This document shows, piece by piece, positions 4,113-18,237 of a DNA stretch of 50,050 nt (within the stretch, counting starts at the first letter, position 1; the number at the start of each line of letters is the position of its first letter). The notes under the pieces are model-generated. The model saw nothing but the letters and a program-made list of their open reading frames with translations. It made no database searches and was not told where the DNA came from. The position numbers and the translations under genes are program-made. The stretch covers positions 1-50,050 of the forward strand of contig JAKAPQ010000002.1 of the NCBI GenBank assembly GCA_021806945.1, written 5' to 3'. This stretch comes from a bacterium. GTDB taxonomy: Bacteria > Vulcanimicrobiota > Vulcanimicrobiia > Vulcanimicrobiales > Vulcanimicrobiaceae.

Positions 4113-5246
4113 GTGAACGGGCGCCCAAAAACGGTACCCCATCCCGCCATACCGCTTTCGTTCTTCGCGGCCGGGCTAGCCGCCATCGGCGGCGTCATCC
4201 TATGGCCCATCTTCCAGGAGCCCTCACGGCTGGCGCTGCTTCACCTGCTCGTCGTCGGCGGCTATGCGACGATCGCGATGGGCGCGCTCTACCAGTTCGT
4301 TCCCGTCGTCGGGATGTCGAAGCTGCGCGGGGCACCTTTCGCGTTCGTCCATCTCGTGCTCGCGGTGGCTGGGACGTGCCTCATCGTGAGCGGATTCGCT
4401 CTCTCTCGGCCCGCGTTGCTGCTAGCGGGCGGCGAGTTACAGATCGGCGGAATAGTGATCCAGGTCGCCGTCTTGGGCGCAACCCTATGGCGGGGACCGC
4501 GTGCCGTCCCGGCGCGCGGCGCATCGTTGGCGCTCGGCTGGTTCGCCGCCACGGCCGTGGCCGGGAGCCTGCTCGCGGACCGGCTGCAGCACGGACTCCC
4601 CGTCGGACGCTTGGCCGGCGTTCACGCCCTGCTCGGGCTCGCTGGTTTTTTTGGAACCCTGATTGCCACGGTGTCGTTCAGGCTGCTCCGAATGTTCGAG
4701 CGCTACGACCTCGAATCGCGCACCGCGCTACGCGCCATCTCGGTTGGCGCAGCAGCCGCGCTCGCGATCTTTTTCGGACGCATCGGCACGATTGCCCTGA
4801 TCGCGGTGGCGCTTCTTCTGGCGGCCGACCTCATCGACGTCCTACGGCATCGCAACCCGGCCTACCAGCGTGAGACGATGCTCTATACGATCGCGTCGAG
4901 TGCCGGAGCCGTCGGCGCTACCATCGCGGCATTCGCAGGGTGGTGGTATGGTGCGGTCGTGCTGGCGGCGTGGTTTTTCGTCGGGTGTGCCGTCGTCGGC
5001 TACATCCAGCGCATCGTTCCATTCATTTGGTGGATCCAGCGCGCCCGTCGCGAAGGCGTCAAACATATTCCGTCCCTCGGCCGCATGAACCAGAGCCGGC
5101 TCGGCCACGCGATCCTAGCGCTGTGGGTCGTCGCAGGAGTGTGGATGCTTTCCGAACCGCTGAGCCGAGGTCCGGCATTCGTGGCGCTGGCAGCCTGGAT
5201 CGCATTGCTTGCGCAGCTCTCCCGCCCCTTCGTTCTTCGGCGCTGA
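4113..5246 (+). CDS. Polytopic membrane protein, NnrS/heme-copper-oxidase-like
   Basis: The 377-residue, almost entirely hydrophobic protein has about ten to eleven predicted membrane helices. Histidines occur inside or at the edges of helices (LALLHLLVVGG near 44, FVHLVL near 95, GVHALLG near 170), followed by GALYQFVPVV near 58. This spacing resembles NnrS and subunit-I-like heme proteins, where helix histidines hold heme, but I cannot name the family securely. It is divergent from the heme radical-SAM pair with a short shared promoter region (4068-4112). A role in handling heme or heme-based respiration or NO stress is inference from that position. The start is GTG at 4113. Confidence 0.6.
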   Translation: MNGRPKTVPHPAIPLSFFAAGLAAIGGVILWPIFQEPSRLALLHLLVVGGYATIAMGALYQFVPVVGMSKLRGAPFAFVHLVLAVAGTCLIVSGFALSRPALLLAGGELQIGGIVIQVAVLGATLWRGPRAVPARGASLALGWFAATAVAGSLLADRLQHGLPVGRLAGVHALLGLAGFFGTLIATVSFRLLRMFERYDLESRTALRAISVGAAAALAIFFGRIGTIALIAVALLLAADLIDVLRHRNPAYQRETMLYTIASSAGAVGATIAAFAGWWYGAVVLAAWFFVGCAVVGYIQRIVPFIWWIQRARREGVKHIPSLGRMNQSRLGHAILALWVVAGVWMLSEPLSRGPAFVALAAWIALLAQLSRPFVLRR

Positions 5247-5329
5247 CGCATCGGCTGGATGTGATTCGTTAGCGGAAAAACGGGGTACACGAGCGGCGTT
5301 ACCTCGGATTTGCGCAGAAAGGGCACTCC

Positions 5330-6139
5330 ATGCAACTGCCGGTTCCGCTTCCACTACTCATCCTGTACGTGGTCGTATTTTTGTTGCTGACGTCCTCCGT
5401 AAAAATCATGCGGCAGTACGAGCGTGCCGTCCTGTTCCAGCTCGGGCGCTTCCGCGTCGTCAAGGGTCCGGGCCTCATCATCGTGGTACCTTTCATCCAG
5501 CAAATCGTGCGCGTGGATCTGCGCGTCGTCGTGATGGAGGTCCCCAGTCAGGACGTGATCTCCCGCGATAACGTCTCAATGAAAGTTGACGCGGTGCTCT
5601 ATTTCCGCGTCGTCGACGCGGAAAAAGCCGTCATTCAAATCGAAAATTACATACCCGCGACGAACATGCTCGCTCAAACGACCCTGCGCTCGGTCGTGGG
5701 CGAGCACGAGCTCGACGAAATGCTCTCGGAACGAAACAAACTCAACGCCGACGTTCAGAACATCTTGGACGCGCGCACGGAAGCCTGGGGCATCAAAGTA
5801 AGCCACGTCGAGATCAGGACCGTGGAACTCACGGAGAACATGATCCGAGCTATCGCCAAACAGGCCGAGGCGGAACGAGACCGGCGCGCCAAGATCATCC
5901 ACGCGGATGCAGAGTTTCAGGCCGCCCAAAAGTTGCTCGATGCCGCACGAATTCTCGAGACCATCCCCGCAGCCATGCAGTTACGCTACCTGCAAACGCT
6001 GATCGAGATCGGGGCCGAGCACAATTCCACCATCGTGTTCCCCATGCCCATCGAAATTATCAAACCGTTCCTGCAGATTCTCGAGAGGAACAGCAAAGAA
6101 CCCGGCGCGGCGGGCGAGATTCGGGGCTCTACGGGATGA
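5330..6139 (+). CDS. Slipin (SPFH/stomatin-family membrane protein)
   Basis: One N-terminal membrane helix (residues about 7-25) is followed by a canonical SPFH domain: [27 protein letters not shown] and the oligomerisation-prone helix [22 protein letters not shown] near 185-205. The length (269 residues) fits bacterial slipins, which scaffold membrane microdomains. A GAAAGG ribosome site precedes ATG 5330. Slipins often neighbour an NfeD-type protease gene; none is present here. Confidence 0.92.
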
Positions 6140-10092: not shown

Positions 10093-11493
10093 GTGGCGCT
10101 ATGGAAGCCTTGGTGGAACGCGATCCGGTTGTTGCGCCCGGCGTTCTCGCGCACGCAAACGTTCCTGTGGTTCGCTGCAGCCGTAGCCGGTATGGCGGTG
10201 CGCACGGACCATTTGGGCGTGACTAGCATTATGCGAGCGCTCAGGCTGCGACCCGGCGTTTACAACAGTCTGTGCCGCTGCTTTCATAGCCCAGGTGTTC
10301 GTATCGATCAACTTACAGCACTGTGGACACAGGTGGTTTTGCGGCTTTTCCCTGAACCGCTCCGCATCAATGGTCGCCGCGTTCTGGTCGGCGACGGCAT
10401 CAAGATTCCCAAGTGCGGGAAGAAAATGCCCGCAGTGAAGCTGCTCCATCAGCAGTCAAACAACAACAGTAAACCCACCTACATTATGGGGCACTCCGTG
10501 CAGGCTGTCGGCGTGCTCGTGCATGCCGCCAGGAACGTGTTCGCGGTACCGCTGGCCGCGCGCATTCACGAAGGGCTGGTCTGGTCCAACCGTGACCGCC
10601 GAACGTTACTTGACAAAATGCTCGCGTTGCTGGGGCTGCTGGCCATGAACGACCCGTTCTACTTCGTGGCCGATGCGTTCTACGCAGCTCGCAAGATCGC
10701 CGGCGGGCTGCTCGCCCGCGATAACCATTTGGTAACCCGCGTAAAATCCAATGCGGTCGCATACACGGCGCACGCCCACCAAGGTCCCAAGAAACGTGGA
10801 CGACCGCGGGTCTACGGCACGAAGGTTCAGCTCAAATCCTTGCTCGCGGAAGACACCGGCCTGCGGTCCGCTCCCAGTCCGGTCTACGGAGAACAGCACG
10901 TCACGATCCACTTTCACGTTCGCGATTTGCTCTGGCGCCCCGTCGGCCGGCTCGTGCGCTTCGTGGCCGTCATCCATCCGCGCCGAGGCTCGTGCCTGCT
11001 CATATGCACCGACATCTCCCTGGACGCCGTCGACATCATTCGCATCTACGGACTCCGCTTCAAAATCGAACACGGGTTTAAGCAGGCGGTACGAGTAATC
11101 GGTACTTTCGGCTACCATTTCTGGATGCAAGACATGAAACCGCTTCGCCACCGCAGCGGCGATCAATACATGCATCACCAGTCACTTGAGTATCGCGACG
11201 CAATTCGCCGTAAGGTGCATGCCTACCACGTGTTCATTCAGGCCGGCGTCATCTGTCAAGGATTACTTCAGTACCTGAGCGCTGCGTTTCCACAACTCGT
11301 CTGGAACGCATTTGGCTCGTGGTTGCGCACCATTCGCCCGGGAACCCCGCCATCTGAATTGGTGGTCGCCAACGCATTACGCCAACGCTTGCCCGAATTT
11401 CTCTTGAGTTCCACCGAAAACCGTTGCCTCGAAAAATTCATCCTCGAACGGCAAGACCTCGATACCTACGAACCATTTCTCCTGGCCTCATGA
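10093..11493 (+). CDS. DDE transposase (IS4-like)
   Basis: The 466-residue protein has a likely RNase H-fold catalytic triad: D101 in LVGDGIKIPK, D194 in FVADAFYAAR, and E326 in LRFKIEHGFKQAV, which resembles the Y-(2)-R-(3)-E-(6)-K region of IS4-type enzymes. Asn/His-rich SNNNSKPTYIMGHS follows the first Asp. It starts at GTG with the strong ribosome site GGAGGTGAT six bases upstream. The gene is intact with no frameshift, so the element may still be functional. It lies divergent from the two passenger genes. Confidence 0.85.
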   Translation: MALWKPWWNAIRLLRPAFSRTQTFLWFAAAVAGMAVRTDHLGVTSIMRALRLRPGVYNSLCRCFHSPGVRIDQLTALWTQVVLRLFPEPLRINGRRVLVGDGIKIPKCGKKMPAVKLLHQQSNNNSKPTYIMGHSVQAVGVLVHAARNVFAVPLAARIHEGLVWSNRDRRTLLDKMLALLGLLAMNDPFYFVADAFYAARKIAGGLLARDNHLVTRVKSNAVAYTAHAHQGPKKRGRPRVYGTKVQLKSLLAEDTGLRSAPSPVYGEQHVTIHFHVRDLLWRPVGRLVRFVAVIHPRRGSCLLICTDISLDAVDIIRIYGLRFKIEHGFKQAVRVIGTFGYHFWMQDMKPLRHRSGDQYMHHQSLEYRDAIRRKVHAYHVFIQAGVICQGLLQYLSAAFPQLVWNAFGSWLRTIRPGTPPSELVVANALRQRLPEFLLSSTENRCLEKFILERQDLDTYEPFLLAS

Positions 11494-12493: not shown

Positions 12494-12865
12494 ATGATGC
12501 ATCTCAAGATAAACCCTATCTGGACCAATAAGACCGAAGCGCCTCACCGCATCGGGACGTTCCGGCTTTACCAAATCCATCAGATCGATTGCGTCAAAGC
12601 GATGCGGTGTCTGCCGGATGCGAGCATTGATGTTGCCATTGCAGATCCACCTTACAATGCCAGTAAGGGCAATGTTTGGAAGTGGGACAACTCGGTAAAT
12701 CTTCCTGGTTTCGGCGGAAACTGGTCGAAGGTAATGTCGGATTGGGACGATATGCCGCTTGCCGAGTATTTCGCCTTCACGCTCGCTTGGCTTACGGAAT
12801 TGAAGAGGGTCGTGCGACCGAGCGGCTCGCTGTGGATTCATGGAACTTACCACGTTAGCGGGATT
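12494..12865 (+). pseudogene. Truncated DNA methyltransferase (N6-adenine/N4-cytosine type)
   Basis: The N-terminal part shows the catalytic motif IADPPYN (DPPY, with DVAIADPPYN near residues 46-55) in a fold order where the DPPY precedes the SAM-binding part. It is followed by LTELKRVVRPSGSLWIHGTY. Homology ends at about HGTYHVSGI (near 12865). The frame then runs to 13003 through unrelated sequence, and the FxGxG region and target recognition part are missing. The methyltransferase is therefore inactive. Confidence 0.7.
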
Positions 12866-13077
12866 AGCCCGCGATCGGGACGCGAATCCTCACCTTTAGG
12901 CTTGAAACCGGCTATCCAAACGATCATTAAAGGGCGCTCATTTTTCGCAACCACAGGGAGAAAGTCAGCCGAATGGCGCCCGAGAAGTCGTTTGATTCCT
13001 TGAGCAAGTTTGCTACGACAATCAGCGGGGATCAGACAAATTGGGAGGTCTGCCGCGCCAGGTGGTAATGGCTGCAT
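12847..13077 (-). pseudogene. Antisense gene fragment, unidentified
   Basis: The minus frame includes SADFLPVVAKNERPLMIVWI then AGFKPKGEDSRPDRGL. It looks like protein-coding sequence (a strand-rich core followed by a conserved-looking KPKGEDSRPDRG loop) and resembles parts of restriction-system proteins, but I cannot name it. It begins at the point where the methyltransferase homology stops, so it is probably a rearranged piece. Confidence 0.3.
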
Positions 13078-13367
13078 TGCGCGGACTTCAAGGAGAAACA
13101 GGCGTCGCTCCCGGCGAGCAGCGGCATTAACAGGGTGCCTTCAGTCAGTCTTAGCCCCGATCAGATCAAGGCCGGCAGGAGGTCGTGAAGGCCAAGGAGC
13201 ACCAGTGATTGCGGGAGAACACCTGTTCGACGCAAAATCTTGTATTGCGACCCGCGGAGTCTCCCTTGGGTACGGCGAACCGGCCCCCCAAGACGTGACA
13301 GGATTCGCGCGTGCAACTCGAGCGCAAGTCACGGCCGCAGGCCGGAAAGACCTAAGCGAGGAACCTG
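13078..13367. other. No intact gene before the C5 methyltransferase
   Basis: A long plus frame covers this stretch and joins the methyltransferase frame, but its predicted residues (Arg/Pro/Ala-rich) do not resemble a methyltransferase N-terminus. I treat it as debris plus promoter region. Confidence 0.4.
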
Positions 13368-13377
13368 CAGACTATAG
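13368..13377 (+). promoter_or_regulatory. Controller-box candidate before the methyltransferase
   Basis: CAGACTATAG lies one base before ATG 13379. The same word occurs one base before vsr (15540-15549), and CAGACAATAG occurs immediately before the controller gene (15502-15511). The core GACTATAG resembles the published GACT...AGTC boxes of restriction-modification controller proteins. TATAGT could also be the -10 box of a message beginning near the second ATG (13388). Confidence 0.6.
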
Positions 13378-13378
13378 T

Positions 13379-14503
13379 ATGAAAAAAATGGAGAACTTGT
13401 CCGCCATTGATCTGTTCTGCGGTTGTGGTGGCATCTCGTCAGGCTTAAGGCGCGCAGGGCTCGACGTTATCGCCGGTCTCGACATGTGGGAAGACGCGCT
13501 GGAGACCTACGCTAATAATTTTCGAAAGTCGCTAACAATCAAAGCGGATCTCGCTCAGCTAAGCACGCGAGCGTTCATGCGGGAGGTTGGTTTGCGAAAA
13601 GGTGAATTGTTCCTATTAGCGGGCGGACCGCCGTGCCAAGGGTTCTCAAAAAATGTACCGCGCAAGAACCGGTTTCTAGAAGACCCGCGCAATCTTCTCG
13701 TCAACTCGTTCTTGGACTACGCGGAGGCTTTAAGGCCTCAAGTTGTTCTGATGGAGAACGTCGCAGAGTTTAAGAACGGGTTCGATCAAGCCTTCACCGA
13801 GGAGATCGAAAACCGGCTCGGTGGCCTCGGGTACCACGTCCACCACGCTGTATTGACCGCTCACGAATACGGCGTACCGCAGCGGCGCCGGAGAGCGTTC
13901 TTCCTCGCGACAAAAGAGAAAATTACTCAGCCTTTTCCTCGGGCCACGCACGGTGATGCCGCGGCCGCACCTTCACTATTCCCGCTCGCCCCGTTCGTCA
14001 CGGTCTGGAATGCGATCGGCGACCTCCCAAGCCTCAAACACGGCGAATCATACGAAAACAAGCCGTATAGGAGGAAGGCATTTTCGGAGTTCCAGACGCG
14101 CGTTCGCGGCTCGAATGACCTAATCATGAACCACGTCGCCCGAAAGCTGCAAGCAACCCAGTACGCCAGATTGTCGTCGATCGAGCCGGGTCAGGGCATC
14201 AAGAATCTTCCGCACCATTTGCGACCGAAGGGCGGTTACAGCGGCGCCTACGGCCGCCTGACGAAGGAGATGATTGCGCCGACAATAACGCGATGGGTTT
14301 TTCACCCTGGGTCAGGCCGTTACGGGCACCCTGTGGACCTGCGACTGATAACGATGCGAGAGGCGGCAAGACTGCAAGGCTTTCCCGACGATTTTGTGTT
14401 CGCCGGGACGTACATCCAACAGGCTCATCAGATCGGCAATGCCGTGCCTCCGCTCCTTGTCGAAGTGATCACTGGTCATCTCCTGCGCCAGATGCGCTCG
14501 TAG
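13379..14503 (+). CDS. DNA (cytosine-5) methyltransferase
   Basis: The 374-residue enzyme has the ordered C5 motifs: I IDLFCGCGGISSG (10-22), IV GGPPCQGFS with catalytic Cys86, VI MENV (125-128), VIII QRRRRAFF (169-176), a variable target-recognition region (about 210-310), IX LRLITMREAARLQGFP and X QIGNAVPP. It transfers a methyl group from SAM to C5 of cytosine in a specific DNA site. ATG 13379 was chosen; ATG 13388 is also possible. It converges on, and overlaps by 35 bases, the putative nuclease gene. With the controller and Vsr genes it forms a type II restriction-modification cassette. The target sequence cannot be read from the protein. Confidence 0.95.
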   Translation: MKKMENLSAIDLFCGCGGISSGLRRAGLDVIAGLDMWEDALETYANNFRKSLTIKADLAQLSTRAFMREVGLRKGELFLLAGGPPCQGFSKNVPRKNRFLEDPRNLLVNSFLDYAEALRPQVVLMENVAEFKNGFDQAFTEEIENRLGGLGYHVHHAVLTAHEYGVPQRRRRAFFLATKEKITQPFPRATHGDAAAAPSLFPLAPFVTVWNAIGDLPSLKHGESYENKPYRRKAFSEFQTRVRGSNDLIMNHVARKLQATQYARLSSIEPGQGIKNLPHHLRPKGGYSGAYGRLTKEMIAPTITRWVFHPGSGRYGHPVDLRLITMREAARLQGFPDDFVFAGTYIQQAHQIGNAVPPLLVEVITGHLLRQMRS

Positions 14504-15257
14504 GTCCGGCGGTCGTGATAGCGGTGTCGTCCAAACTCTCAAGCCATCCCATCAGTTCCTCCAACTTGATCTTGGTGGTCGGCAGGTTGAAATCGATTCT
14601 ATTTGGATCGCCAAGGGCCGGCCACCAAGCCTTCTCATTATTGAAGTGAAGTTGATTCTCCGAATACCATGAAAACCAGCGAACTCTTTTTTGATCGTAA
14701 GCAGCTAGCGAAGGTTGTTGATCCTTGTTAGCGTTTGTTCTTGCTTCGGACCATTCCCACGTGAAATTCTCTGGGTGGAAGAGCACTAGCGAAGCCATTG
14801 TGACTAAGGGGCGCTCGAAATACGTCGCGGTGTTATTGGGATTAACAACCAGGCGAGCATAGCCTATCTCGTTTAAGTCGTATCGATCGAGACTCTCCCT
14901 CGCGTGTTTGTTGCAGAACGCAATGATCTCGTTGCCAACCTCTTGGGCAGCGGCCGGGGATTTTCTAGCGTCCGTTCTTTTCTGCCCGGCGTTTTCGATC
15001 TTAGCGCGTTTCCAGGTTACCGGCGTAGCCAGCTTTGTACTCTTGACCTGCCAACCGAAGTGGTTCTTCCTGTCGATAACGTCCACAAAGTCGTACGTCC
15101 GGAGGACCTCCGCCTCGGGTCCACGCGCTATCCCAAGAGTCGCCTCCATCACCGAGCCGGGGATGCTGTTCGCAGGACTAAATGGAAGTTGATGGTAGCG
15201 CGTAATCAACTCGGCTATTCGTTTAAGCGTGGCGACATCGGAGATAAGGCTAGCCAC
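14469..15257 (-). CDS. Putative type II restriction endonuclease
   Basis: The 262-residue protein has no family I can name. A PD-(D/E)XK-like core is visible as TYDFVDVID followed by FGWQVKST (D59 ... Q70-V-K72), the variant in which the second acidic residue is Gln, with E38 upstream as a possible extra ligand. The gene lies between the C5 methyltransferase and the controller HTH gene. It overlaps the controller stop by 8 bases and starts at GTG within it, the usual C-then-R arrangement of controlled type II systems. Cleavage of the unmethylated cognate site is the inferred role. Confidence 0.7.
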   Translation of the reverse strand: MASLISDVATLKRIAELITRYHQLPFSPANSIPGSVMEATLGIARGPEAEVLRTYDFVDVIDRKNHFGWQVKSTKLATPVTWKRAKIENAGQKRTDARKSPAAAQEVGNEIIAFCNKHARESLDRYDLNEIGYARLVVNPNNTATYFERPLVTMASLVLFHPENFTWEWSEARTNANKDQQPSLAAYDQKRVRWFSWYSENQLHFNNEKAWWPALGDPNRIDFNLPTTKIKLEELMGWLESLDDTAITTAGPTSASGAGDDQ

Positions 15258-15501
15258 GTGCGATTTCCTCGGCTTCGCACAGGAGCACGGATGGCGAGAC
15301 TTTTAGCGCTTTCGCGAGCGCGGCGATGGCCTTCAGGGACGCGGATTTTCGCCCACGCTCCAGGTCGCTAACGTAGGTTCGATGAAGGCCGCTTAGGTGG
15401 GCAAGTTCTTCCTGAGAGAGCGCGCGAACTTGCCGGCGACGGCGCACGACCTCTCCCAGCGCGATCTGAAGCGGATCATCCCGGCTTCCCTCGGCTTTCA
15501 T
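15250..15501 (-). CDS. Controller (C) protein of the restriction-modification system
   Basis: From ATG 15501 this is an 83-residue, all-helical Cro/CI-type HTH protein: LGEVVRRRRQVRALSQEELA then HLSGLHRTYVSDLERGRKSA and LKAIAALAKALKVSPSVLL. The length and the phrase LSGLHRTYVSDLERGRKS are typical of C proteins such as C.AhdI, which activate the nuclease gene after a delay and repress the methyltransferase. The longer frame to 15540 would run over the proposed operators and is less likely. A minus-strand TATTGT just before the ATG suggests a leaderless message, common for C genes. Confidence 0.85.
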   Translation of the reverse strand: MKAEGSRDDPLQIALGEVVRRRRQVRALSQEELAHLSGLHRTYVSDLERGRKSASLKAIAALAKALKVSPSVLLCEAEEIARG

Positions 15502-15549
15502 CAGACAATAGAGTACGTGAGGGCCAACACGGCCGTCCACAGACTATAG
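15502..15549. promoter_or_regulatory. Controller-vsr intergenic region with two box candidates
   Basis: CAGACAATAG (15502-15511) directly abuts the controller ATG and CAGACTATAG (15540-15549) lies one base before the vsr ATG. The starts of the two words are 38 bases apart. The region is the only space between the divergent genes, so both promoters must lie here. Together with the copy at 13368, three boxes in one cassette make a regulatory role probable. Confidence 0.6.
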
Positions 15550-15550
15550 C

Positions 15551-15991
15551 ATGAGCAATACAAGCGAGAAGAGATCGAAGGTCATGCGCTCCATTAAGCG
15601 ATCCGGGACGAAGCTGGAGTCGCAGTTCGAATGCGTCCTTCGCGCAGTGTGCCTTGCAGACTTTGAGCGACAAGTTAGATCTTTGCCCGGGACGCCGGAT
15701 TTTGTTTTTCGCGACCTTCAGGTCGCGCTTTTCATCGACAGTTGCTATTGGCACGCCTGCCCTGAGCACTTACGGATGCCGGCAACCAACCAAGAATATT
15801 GGGCAGAAAAAATGCGACGCAACGCCGAGCGGGACGCCCGCCAAGCAACCGAGTTGGCTGCACTCGGCTGGCGCGTGGCGCGCGTTTGGGAGCACGAACT
15901 GAAGAGCGAGGAGGTCCTGAAGAAAAGGCTTTCCGGCGTCCTTGCTACTCGTGCGCCGCAAAGGAGTAGCCAACCCCGGCCTCAGTCTTGA
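15551..15991 (+). CDS. vsr: Very short patch repair endonuclease (Vsr)
   Basis: The 146-residue protein matches Vsr: KRSKVMRSIKRSGTKLE at the start, GTPDFVF (D50), VALFIDSCYWHACPEH (D63, zinc and catalytic His/Cys region), EYWAEKMRRNAERD and the ending ALGWRVARVWEHEL. Vsr nicks 5' of the T in T:G mismatches created by deamination of 5-methylcytosine at the cognate methylated site. Its presence fits the neighbouring C5 methyltransferase. It starts one base after a controller-box candidate. The last 47 bases overlap the convergent winged-helix gene. Confidence 0.93.
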   Translation: MSNTSEKRSKVMRSIKRSGTKLESQFECVLRAVCLADFERQVRSLPGTPDFVFRDLQVALFIDSCYWHACPEHLRMPATNQEYWAEKMRRNAERDARQATELAALGWRVARVWEHELKSEEVLKKRLSGVLATRAPQRSSQPRPQS

Positions 15992-16700: not shown

Positions 16701-16721
16701 GATGAGTTGACCAGCCCGGGC

Positions 16722-17588
16722 ATGCCAGGGCGGCGTCGCAAGATGCCGTTTATGAACCGACTGAGCATGGACGAACGACAATCGATCATCGGGCTGCTGC
16801 GCCTGAAATGGCCAGAGCGGCGGATCGCGCGGGAAACCGGCTTTCACCGGGCGACGATCCGGCGCATCGCGGCCGGGCTGGCCGCCGAGTCCTCAAAACG
16901 TACCAGCCCCAGCGAAGTGGCCACCGACCCAAACCCCGCCAGGATGCTGGCCAGGGTCGTCGTCGCCGAGCACCCCGATCCAAAAGATACCCTGGCTCCC
17001 GAAGTGCCCGCCGGCTCGCCGCGATCGCGCAGCGCCTGCGAGCCGTATCGCAGATTCATCGAGGCAGAGGCCGCCAAGGGCCGTAACGCGGTGGCGATCT
17101 ACCAGGATCTGGTCGAGCACCACGGCTACCACGGCGCCTACAACGCGGTCAAACGTTTCGTCGGCAAACTGCGGCCGCGCGATCCGAAGATCAGTTGCCG
17201 GTCCGAAACCGGGCCGGGGCAAGAAGCGCAGGTCGACTACGGCGAAGGCGCGCTAACTCGTCACCCGCAAACCGGAAAATACCGCCGGCCGCGGCTGTTC
17301 GTCATGAAGTTGGGCAACAGTCGCCGCGCGTTTCGCAAGGTTGTCTGGAACTCGTCGACCGAGGTGTGGTGCAGACTGCACGAAGAGGCCTTTGCGAAGC
17401 TCGGCGGCCCGCCGCACACGATTCGCCTCGACAACCTCAAAGAAGGCGTGATCAAGCCCGACATCTACGATCCACAGCTCAACCCGCTGTACGTCAAGAT
17501 GCTGGAGCACTACGGCGTGATCGCGCTGCCATGCCGCCCGTATGCGCCCGATCTCAAGGGCGTGCCGGCCAGTATGTTCTCGGGATAA
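16722..17588 (+). pseudogene. istA: IS21 transposase IstA, C-terminally truncated
   Basis: An N-terminal HTH (LSMDERQSIIGLLRLKWPER then RRIARETGFHRATIRRI) precedes the catalytic region with the first Asp in EAQVDYGEG and the second in TIRLDNLKEGV, then CRPYAPDLKG. IstA normally continues past this with the catalytic Glu and about 200 more residues; here homology ends at DLKG (about 17567) and the frame closes at 17588. The enzyme is therefore inactive, and its IstB partner is missing. The start is uncertain; ATG 16722 was chosen over the upstream TTG. Confidence 0.8.
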
Positions 17589-17625: not shown

Positions 17626-18237
17626 CTAGACGGCGGTTTTGCCGGCGCGTGAGACGACGGCCGTTTTGAGATTGTCAACGAGCACCTCGCCGGGCACGCC
17701 GCCGAAGAAGGCAAACGCACGCCGATGGCAGTCCAGCCAGGTCAGCATCTGCATGTCGGTGGTAAAGCGCACGAAGAGCGCGCGCGACCGCGCCATCACG
17801 GCGACGAAGACGTAGAGATTGACGCGATGGCCGCCCCGGTCGACGGCGCCCAGATCGCCCCAATCGACCTGCATCTGCTGGCCGGGACGCACGAAGAACC
17901 GCCGTTCGGCCGGTTGCGGTTTGCGGCGCAGCGGCTGGAGGTACTCCTTGAGCACGGTTCGGCCGCCGCCGTAGCCGAGGAGCTGCAGTTCATCGAAAAT
18001 CCGCTCGCCGGTCCAGAGCGACTTGACCGGATCGGCCAGCCAGGCGGCGATCGTATCGGCGTAGGGGCCGAGTTTGAGGTCCTTGGGGCGGCGGCGCTTG
18101 CCGGTGGGGGCCGTGGGGCTGCGCAACGCGCGGCGGACGGCGTTGCGCCTGACGCCGCGCAGGACGGCGATCTTGCGGATGCTCAGGCCCTGCATCCGTA
18201 GGGTATGAACGTCCCTCCAGCGCTCCGAACGGGTGAT
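17626..18237 (-). pseudogene. istA: Second IS21-type IstA, truncated, different subgroup
   Basis: The protein shows MQGLSIRKIAVLRGVRRNAV (N-terminal HTH), then QQMQVDWGDLGAV (first Asp) and GEVLVDNLKTAVVSR (second Asp). It ends just after this, before the catalytic Glu. The normal start appears to be at 18235-18237, where AAGGAAGGAG precedes ITRSERWRDVHTLRMQGLSI in frame, but the codon there is ATC. Sequence identity to the plus-strand IstA is low, so two different IS21 elements met here. Confidence 0.75.

Follow-up and report, generated by a model that had tools for sequence, protein, structure and literature searches.

A probable C-protein circuit with a C-box between the controller and vsr genes of a C5 restriction-modification cassette

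Organization of the cassette

The 50,050-nucleotide stretch analysed here (the window) contains a compact restriction-modification cassette comprising genes for a C5-cytosine DNA methyltransferase (M), a putative restriction endonuclease, a controller (C) protein and a very-short-patch-repair endonuclease (vsr), arranged as shown in Table 1. The vsr and C genes are divergent, with start codons 49 bp apart, and the putative nuclease reading frame follows directly after the C gene and overlaps its 3′ end. The methyltransferase reading frame contains a second in-frame ATG at 13388 (giving MENLSAIDLF...), and there is no Shine-Dalgarno sequence within the 20 bases upstream of M (read from 13388), C or vsr; when M is read from 13379, the Shine-Dalgarno match is only 4 bases.

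Table 1. Genes and predicted regulatory sites of the cassette (window positions)
Feature	Position	Strand	Basis and remarks
C5-cytosine DNA methyltransferase (M)	13379..14503	+	374 aa; PF00145 (1.1e-57), TIGR00675 (1.2e-46), PADLOC MTase_II (9.8e-98)
Putative restriction endonuclease	14469..15257	-	262 aa, GTG start; position and motif FVDVIDRKNHFGWQVKSTK, by eye
Controller (C) protein gene	15250..15501	-	83 aa, without Shine-Dalgarno; PADLOC and PDB matches
vsr (very-short-patch-repair endonuclease)	15551..15991	+	146 aa; TIGR00632 (5.6e-36, 123.4 bits against a cut-off of 97.85), PF03852 (1.9e-15, 56.9 bits against a cut-off of 27), PHROG 13076 (5.7e-38)
Predicted O_M-like operator CAGACTATAGTATG	13368..13381	+	13/14 of CAGACTATAGTCTG; covers ATG 13379 and -10-like TATAGT (13373-13378)
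Predicted C-box of C gene, CATGCTATAGTCTGTGGACGGCCGTGTTGG (minus-strand reading)	15524..15553	-	Foreign C-box matrix, distance to C
Third box CAGACAATAG	15502..15511	+	One mismatch to CAGACTATAG; abuts C start codon

The C gene encodes a small HTH_3 protein whose top PADLOC family is Control_protein (2.4e-16) and whose closest solved structures in the PDB are C.AhdI (6.5e-11) and C.BclI (1.7e-10), in agreement with the C-protein-like helix-turn-helix gene noted in the initial annotation. Alignment by eye places its R41, T42 and Y43 at the positions of R35, T36 and Y37 of C.Esp1396I, all three being conserved, and K52 at the position of R46; the DNA-contact roles of these four C.Esp1396I residues are described in PMC4041747.

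No homologue of the 262-aa protein was found in plasmids, phages, viral contigs, genome contigs or 117 genomes of its class, and nothing significant in Pfam, NCBIfam, PHROGs or PDB sequences; PADLOC gives UzuA only, at 0.005, and a single-sequence fold is unusable (pLDDT 32). The slot after the C gene, overlapping its end, is nevertheless the usual place of the nuclease. This position, together with the PD-(D/E/Q)XK-like motif listed in Table 1, suggests that the protein is the nuclease of the system.

The surroundings contain several transposase/integrase reading frames flanking the cassette (10093-11493, 16707-17588 and 17626-18195; DDE_5/DDE_Tnp_1, rve), in keeping with a mobile island. Upstream of the cassette, at 12494-13003 (+), lies a CcrM-like adenine methyltransferase reading frame of which only residues 26-120 match; it looks like a broken orphan methyltransferase.

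Repeated boxes at the gene starts

A short repeated sequence lies at three of the start codons in the cassette. The 10-mer CAGACTATAG is present at 13368-13377 (+), 1 base ahead of the methyltransferase ATG at 13379, and again at 15540-15549 (+), 1 base ahead of the vsr ATG at 15551, and the near-identical third box touches the C start codon (minus-strand ATG 15501-15499). These are the three boxes of the initial annotation, and the genome-wide motif search that it suggested finds them confined to the cassette: CAGACWATAG has exactly three copies in the 2,364,345-base genome assembly, 3/3 of them in the cassette, and the reversed control pattern has none. Base composition predicts about 3.9 sites scattered over the genome; the non-random feature is the clustering at three start codons within 2.2 kb, not the copy number.

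Alignment extends the repeat unit to a 14-bp palindrome, CAGACTATAGTCTG, which is matched at 13 of 14 positions by the methyltransferase site and at 12 of 14 by the vsr site (CAGACTATAGCATG). A scan of the whole genome permitting up to two mismatches returns these two sites only, and the C-start site fails. Because the M and vsr start codons belong to the palindrome, the spacing of a single base between box and ATG is no independent signal; CAT(A/G)CTATAGTCTG is operator sequence.

The third box has no counterpart in either of two related loci, L123 and L113, and with its failure to match the palindrome at two mismatches this tells against the earlier proposal that it is the operator of the controller gene. 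Its role as an operator is doubtful; it is perhaps an auxiliary site or promoter sequence.

The C-box in the C/vsr gap

For comparison we collected 80 C-protein genes from other genomes, most of which have the known C-box upstream, with the consensus ATGnTACTcATAGTCTGTAGACTcATaGTCtgCA. A weight matrix of the C-box centre, built solely from 43 C-boxes of other genomes, has its best site in the window at 15535-15548 (minus strand), scoring 20.1 of 25.6 bits; the next site reaches 9.8. In the GACT class, a GT-centred linker is flanked by two pseudo-palindromes. The C-box so located consists of a strong left half (O_L), CATGCTATAGTC(TG), the linker TGTG and a degenerate right half, GACGGCCGT, and the vsr start codon is complementary to its outer CAT. 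A matrix of the full 34-bp C-box misses the site because the right half is degenerate, and a matrix of the left half plus linker detects it; right halves are similarly degenerate in some relatives (L010, GTGTAGATGGCCGCG; L036). From the linker centre, the LSQE codon of the C gene is 119 bp away; in 48 canonical loci this distance has a median of 113 bp and quartiles of 104-117.

The core TATAGTCTGTRGAC is common to the window box and the canonical boxes. The half-site has a two-base centre, ACTATAGT, rather than the three-base centre typical of the class, and is thus one base shorter (GACT-AT-AGT as against the classical GACT-TAT-AGTC); the same two-base-centre core lies upstream of the related C genes of L113, L121, L123 and L035. 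The window C-box is best described as a variant of the GACT class. Its top matrix score and its canonical distance identify the box at 15540-15549, initially assigned to vsr as an operator of its own, as the predicted left half of the C-box that belongs to the C gene, in the normal place.

The methyltransferase operator

At the methyltransferase start there is a single palindrome, with a counterpart at 6295 in L123, and it is also the third-best site of the centre matrix in the window (13363-13376, minus strand, 9.05 bits). We predict that it is a single operator, like O_M of Esp1396I. The TATAGT within it is a good -10 sequence a few bases ahead of the in-frame ATG at 13388, which suggests that the methyltransferase mRNA may be near-leaderless and that its promoter would be occluded by bound C protein. 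Scans for sigma-70 promoters give no consensus pair at either the methyltransferase box or the box in the C/vsr gap.

Related cassettes

A strong C protein is present beside vsr in three distinct cassettes among 108 vsr loci: that of the window and two unrelated ones, in a deltaproteobacterial MAG (L079) and in a viral contig (L123; L173 and L253 are the same contig and are not counted separately). The loci were gathered with either the C protein or vsr as query, and the three cassettes are a small sample rather than an unbiased census. All three share the same gene order, with vsr and C divergent, a nuclease or C-nuclease-like fusion, and M convergent, and 3/3 have a C-box in the vsr/C gap.

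The viral cassette is a cassette-level counterpart. It contains ACTATAGT exactly twice, once in the gap between C and vsr and once immediately ahead of the M start, and these two copies share 16 identical bases, CATACTATAGTTAGCA. Its vsr gene has a perfect TATAAT, and the corresponding -35 position falls within the operator (a sigma-70 scan of this locus found no promoter pair). Its nuclease is a different, ICEA-like protein, so that a change of nuclease has left the operator plan and the gene order intact. The conservation of boxes in homologous cassettes, which the initial annotation named as a check, thus extends to two of the three boxes in L123; the C-start box is the one missing. In the deltaproteobacterial cassette some 115 bp separate the C-box from the start of vsr, which makes control of vsr less obvious there, and no methyltransferase operator was found in that locus. 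Its nuclease position (4977-5840, with vsr divergent) is occupied by a 287-aa protein that begins as a C protein and continues into a long C-terminal part, a probable C-nuclease fusion.

Several other loci bear on the distribution of these elements. Luteimonas salinisoli (L035, 4929-5219) has an orphan C protein, with no C5 methyltransferase or vsr within 5 kb, and its box, CTCATACTATAGTCTGTCGACGG, is nearly that of the window. Two Streptomyces-type C loci (L021, 2957-3010; L027, 2937-2990) have another C-box half-site about 1.9 kb away from the C gene, where a further gene begins whose product has a nuclease-like look (YEIKTVARMNF). The vsr genes of L101 and L103 lie beside HTH genes that were judged, from their sequences and the lack of a C-box, to be generic regulators, and these loci were set aside; several viral vsr loci have only weak or methyltransferase-fused HTH matches. 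In a genome of the same family (L099, 1-270), a C-like HTH gene and a methyltransferase-vsr operon point away from each other; the palindrome immediately ahead of this methyltransferase, GAGAATATATTCTC, is perfect but differs from that of the window, and the locus was rejected as an instance of the same arrangement. This layout is possibly another way for vsr to come under a C-like regulator. Single-sequence queries of viral contigs with the window vsr and methyltransferase gave nothing useful.

Comparison with known C-protein systems

The cassette most resembles, in its plan, the Esp1396I system, in which C.Esp1396I binds O_M at the M gene and O_L plus O_R at C/R with strong cooperativity, contacting GAC/GTC around a central TATA spacer (PMC3758141). 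The two share the C-protein family, a C gene preceding R (in the window, the putative nuclease gene), a single M operator together with a two-half C-box at C/R (in the window, one predicted from its left half and linker), GAC/GTC around a TATA centre, and the conserved R-T-Y of the recognition helix. They differ in that the window has a vsr gene divergent from C across the C-box, a C5 methyltransferase, an operator centre one base shorter, a lysine at the R46 position, and M and vsr start codons inside the operators. The GACT C-boxes of C.AhdI, C.BclI and C.PvuII are similar in the linker TGTRGAC and the distance from box to gene, and C.AhdI and C.BclI are the closest structures; the window box departs from them in its very degenerate right half and its two-base centre.

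As in dcm-vsr and other pairs of C5 methyltransferase and vsr, the repair gene accompanies a C5 methyltransferase, but here it is not in the M operon and is instead divergent from the controller gene. An operator at or inside a gene start is also known from Kpn2I, where the C protein at the gene start acts as a roadblock; its operator is of a different sequence class, and most C proteins are only distant relatives of C.Kpn2I (PMC6237814). In other systems C proteins activate C-R transcription at low concentration and repress it at high concentration, some also repress the methyltransferase (PMC12707154), and C operons and transcripts are often leaderless (PMC4824078).

Control of vsr and alternative explanations

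Sequence and layout together make control of vsr by the C protein likely. Since the vsr start codon lies within the left half of the C-box, the C protein should block vsr, a dimer over the start codon acting as a hindrance. More broadly, a single bidirectional C-box running both the C-nuclease operon and the divergent vsr may be a recurrent design, timing the repair of deaminated 5-methylcytosine with M and the nuclease; in the window the M and vsr start codons would be part of the operator itself. We regard the chances of this as evenly balanced. Alternatively, the box in the gap could serve the C gene alone, with vsr independent and its contact with the box explained by a gap of only 49 bp. 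The box is located exactly where the C gene's own C-box belongs, the same CATACTATAGTCTG is present at the orphan C gene of L035 with neither vsr nor any long gene at that ATG, and no clear vsr promoter was found in the window. Nonetheless, in 3/3 cassettes with a true C protein near vsr the two genes are divergent with a C-box between them, the L123 operator covers the -35 position of a vsr promoter that has TATAAT, and the dimer site of the window extends over the vsr start codon, such that bound C must meet RNA polymerase entering vsr. We consider an independent vsr rather unlikely.

The initial annotation favored one operator type with three separate operators at the start codons of the genes that they control, the C-start box included. 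Three near-identical 10-mers do mark three start codons and are absent from the rest of the genome, and a one-mismatch copy within a 49-bp gap is improbable by chance (a rough estimate gives an order of 0.002). The idea of a common operator type holds insofar as the boxes at M and in the C/vsr gap are operator-like and kept in L123, but the C-start copy misfits the palindrome at two mismatches and is missing in L123 and L113, a C-box at the canonical distance is already predicted for the C gene, and the box at vsr belongs to that C-box; three separate operators are thus improbable. Nor are the boxes likely to be promoter -10 elements (TATAGT/TATAGC) or translation signals instead of protein operators, an explanation to which we give very little credence. 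It is true that TATAGT is a good -10, from which a near-leaderless methyltransferase mRNA would begin a few bases ahead of ATG 13388. The boxes, however, are palindromic, match foreign C-boxes including the linker TGTGGAC and are confined to the cassette in 2.36 Mb, and a vsr -10 at TATAGC would place the transcript start inside vsr; at the methyltransferase, moreover, the operator and -10 roles are compatible.

Proposed regulatory circuit

We think it probable that a C protein of the AhdI/PvuII/Esp1396I kind controls this type II C5 restriction-modification cassette through a C-box in the C/vsr gap and a single operator at M, with vsr blocked as well. We infer binding and the direction of each effect from the operators, their positions and the conserved layout. 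The C dimer would bind the two-half C-box in the 49-bp gap, with CATGCTATAGTC on the vsr side and GACGGCCGT on the C side. One dimer on the left half would activate the C-nuclease operon, and filling of the right half would repress it. The same dimer on the left half, covering the vsr start codon, would also block vsr, and C protein on the single palindrome over TATAGT and the M start codon would shut down the methyltransferase. On entry into a naive cell, M and vsr would then be made first, and both would be turned down as C and the nuclease rise.

The system is probably a known type of C-protein circuit in which vsr is the one additional gene. A search that fell short of some key primary papers yielded no published account of vsr being controlled by a C protein, and the novelty of this point is accordingly moderate. 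C-protein circuits are the best-studied timers for the safe entry of restriction-modification systems into a new host, and in published accounts the genes under their control are those of the nuclease and sometimes of the methyltransferase. Should vsr belong to the circuit, the repair of mutations caused by C5 methylation would be part of the timed programme, and the same would then hold for several cassettes that share the gene order.
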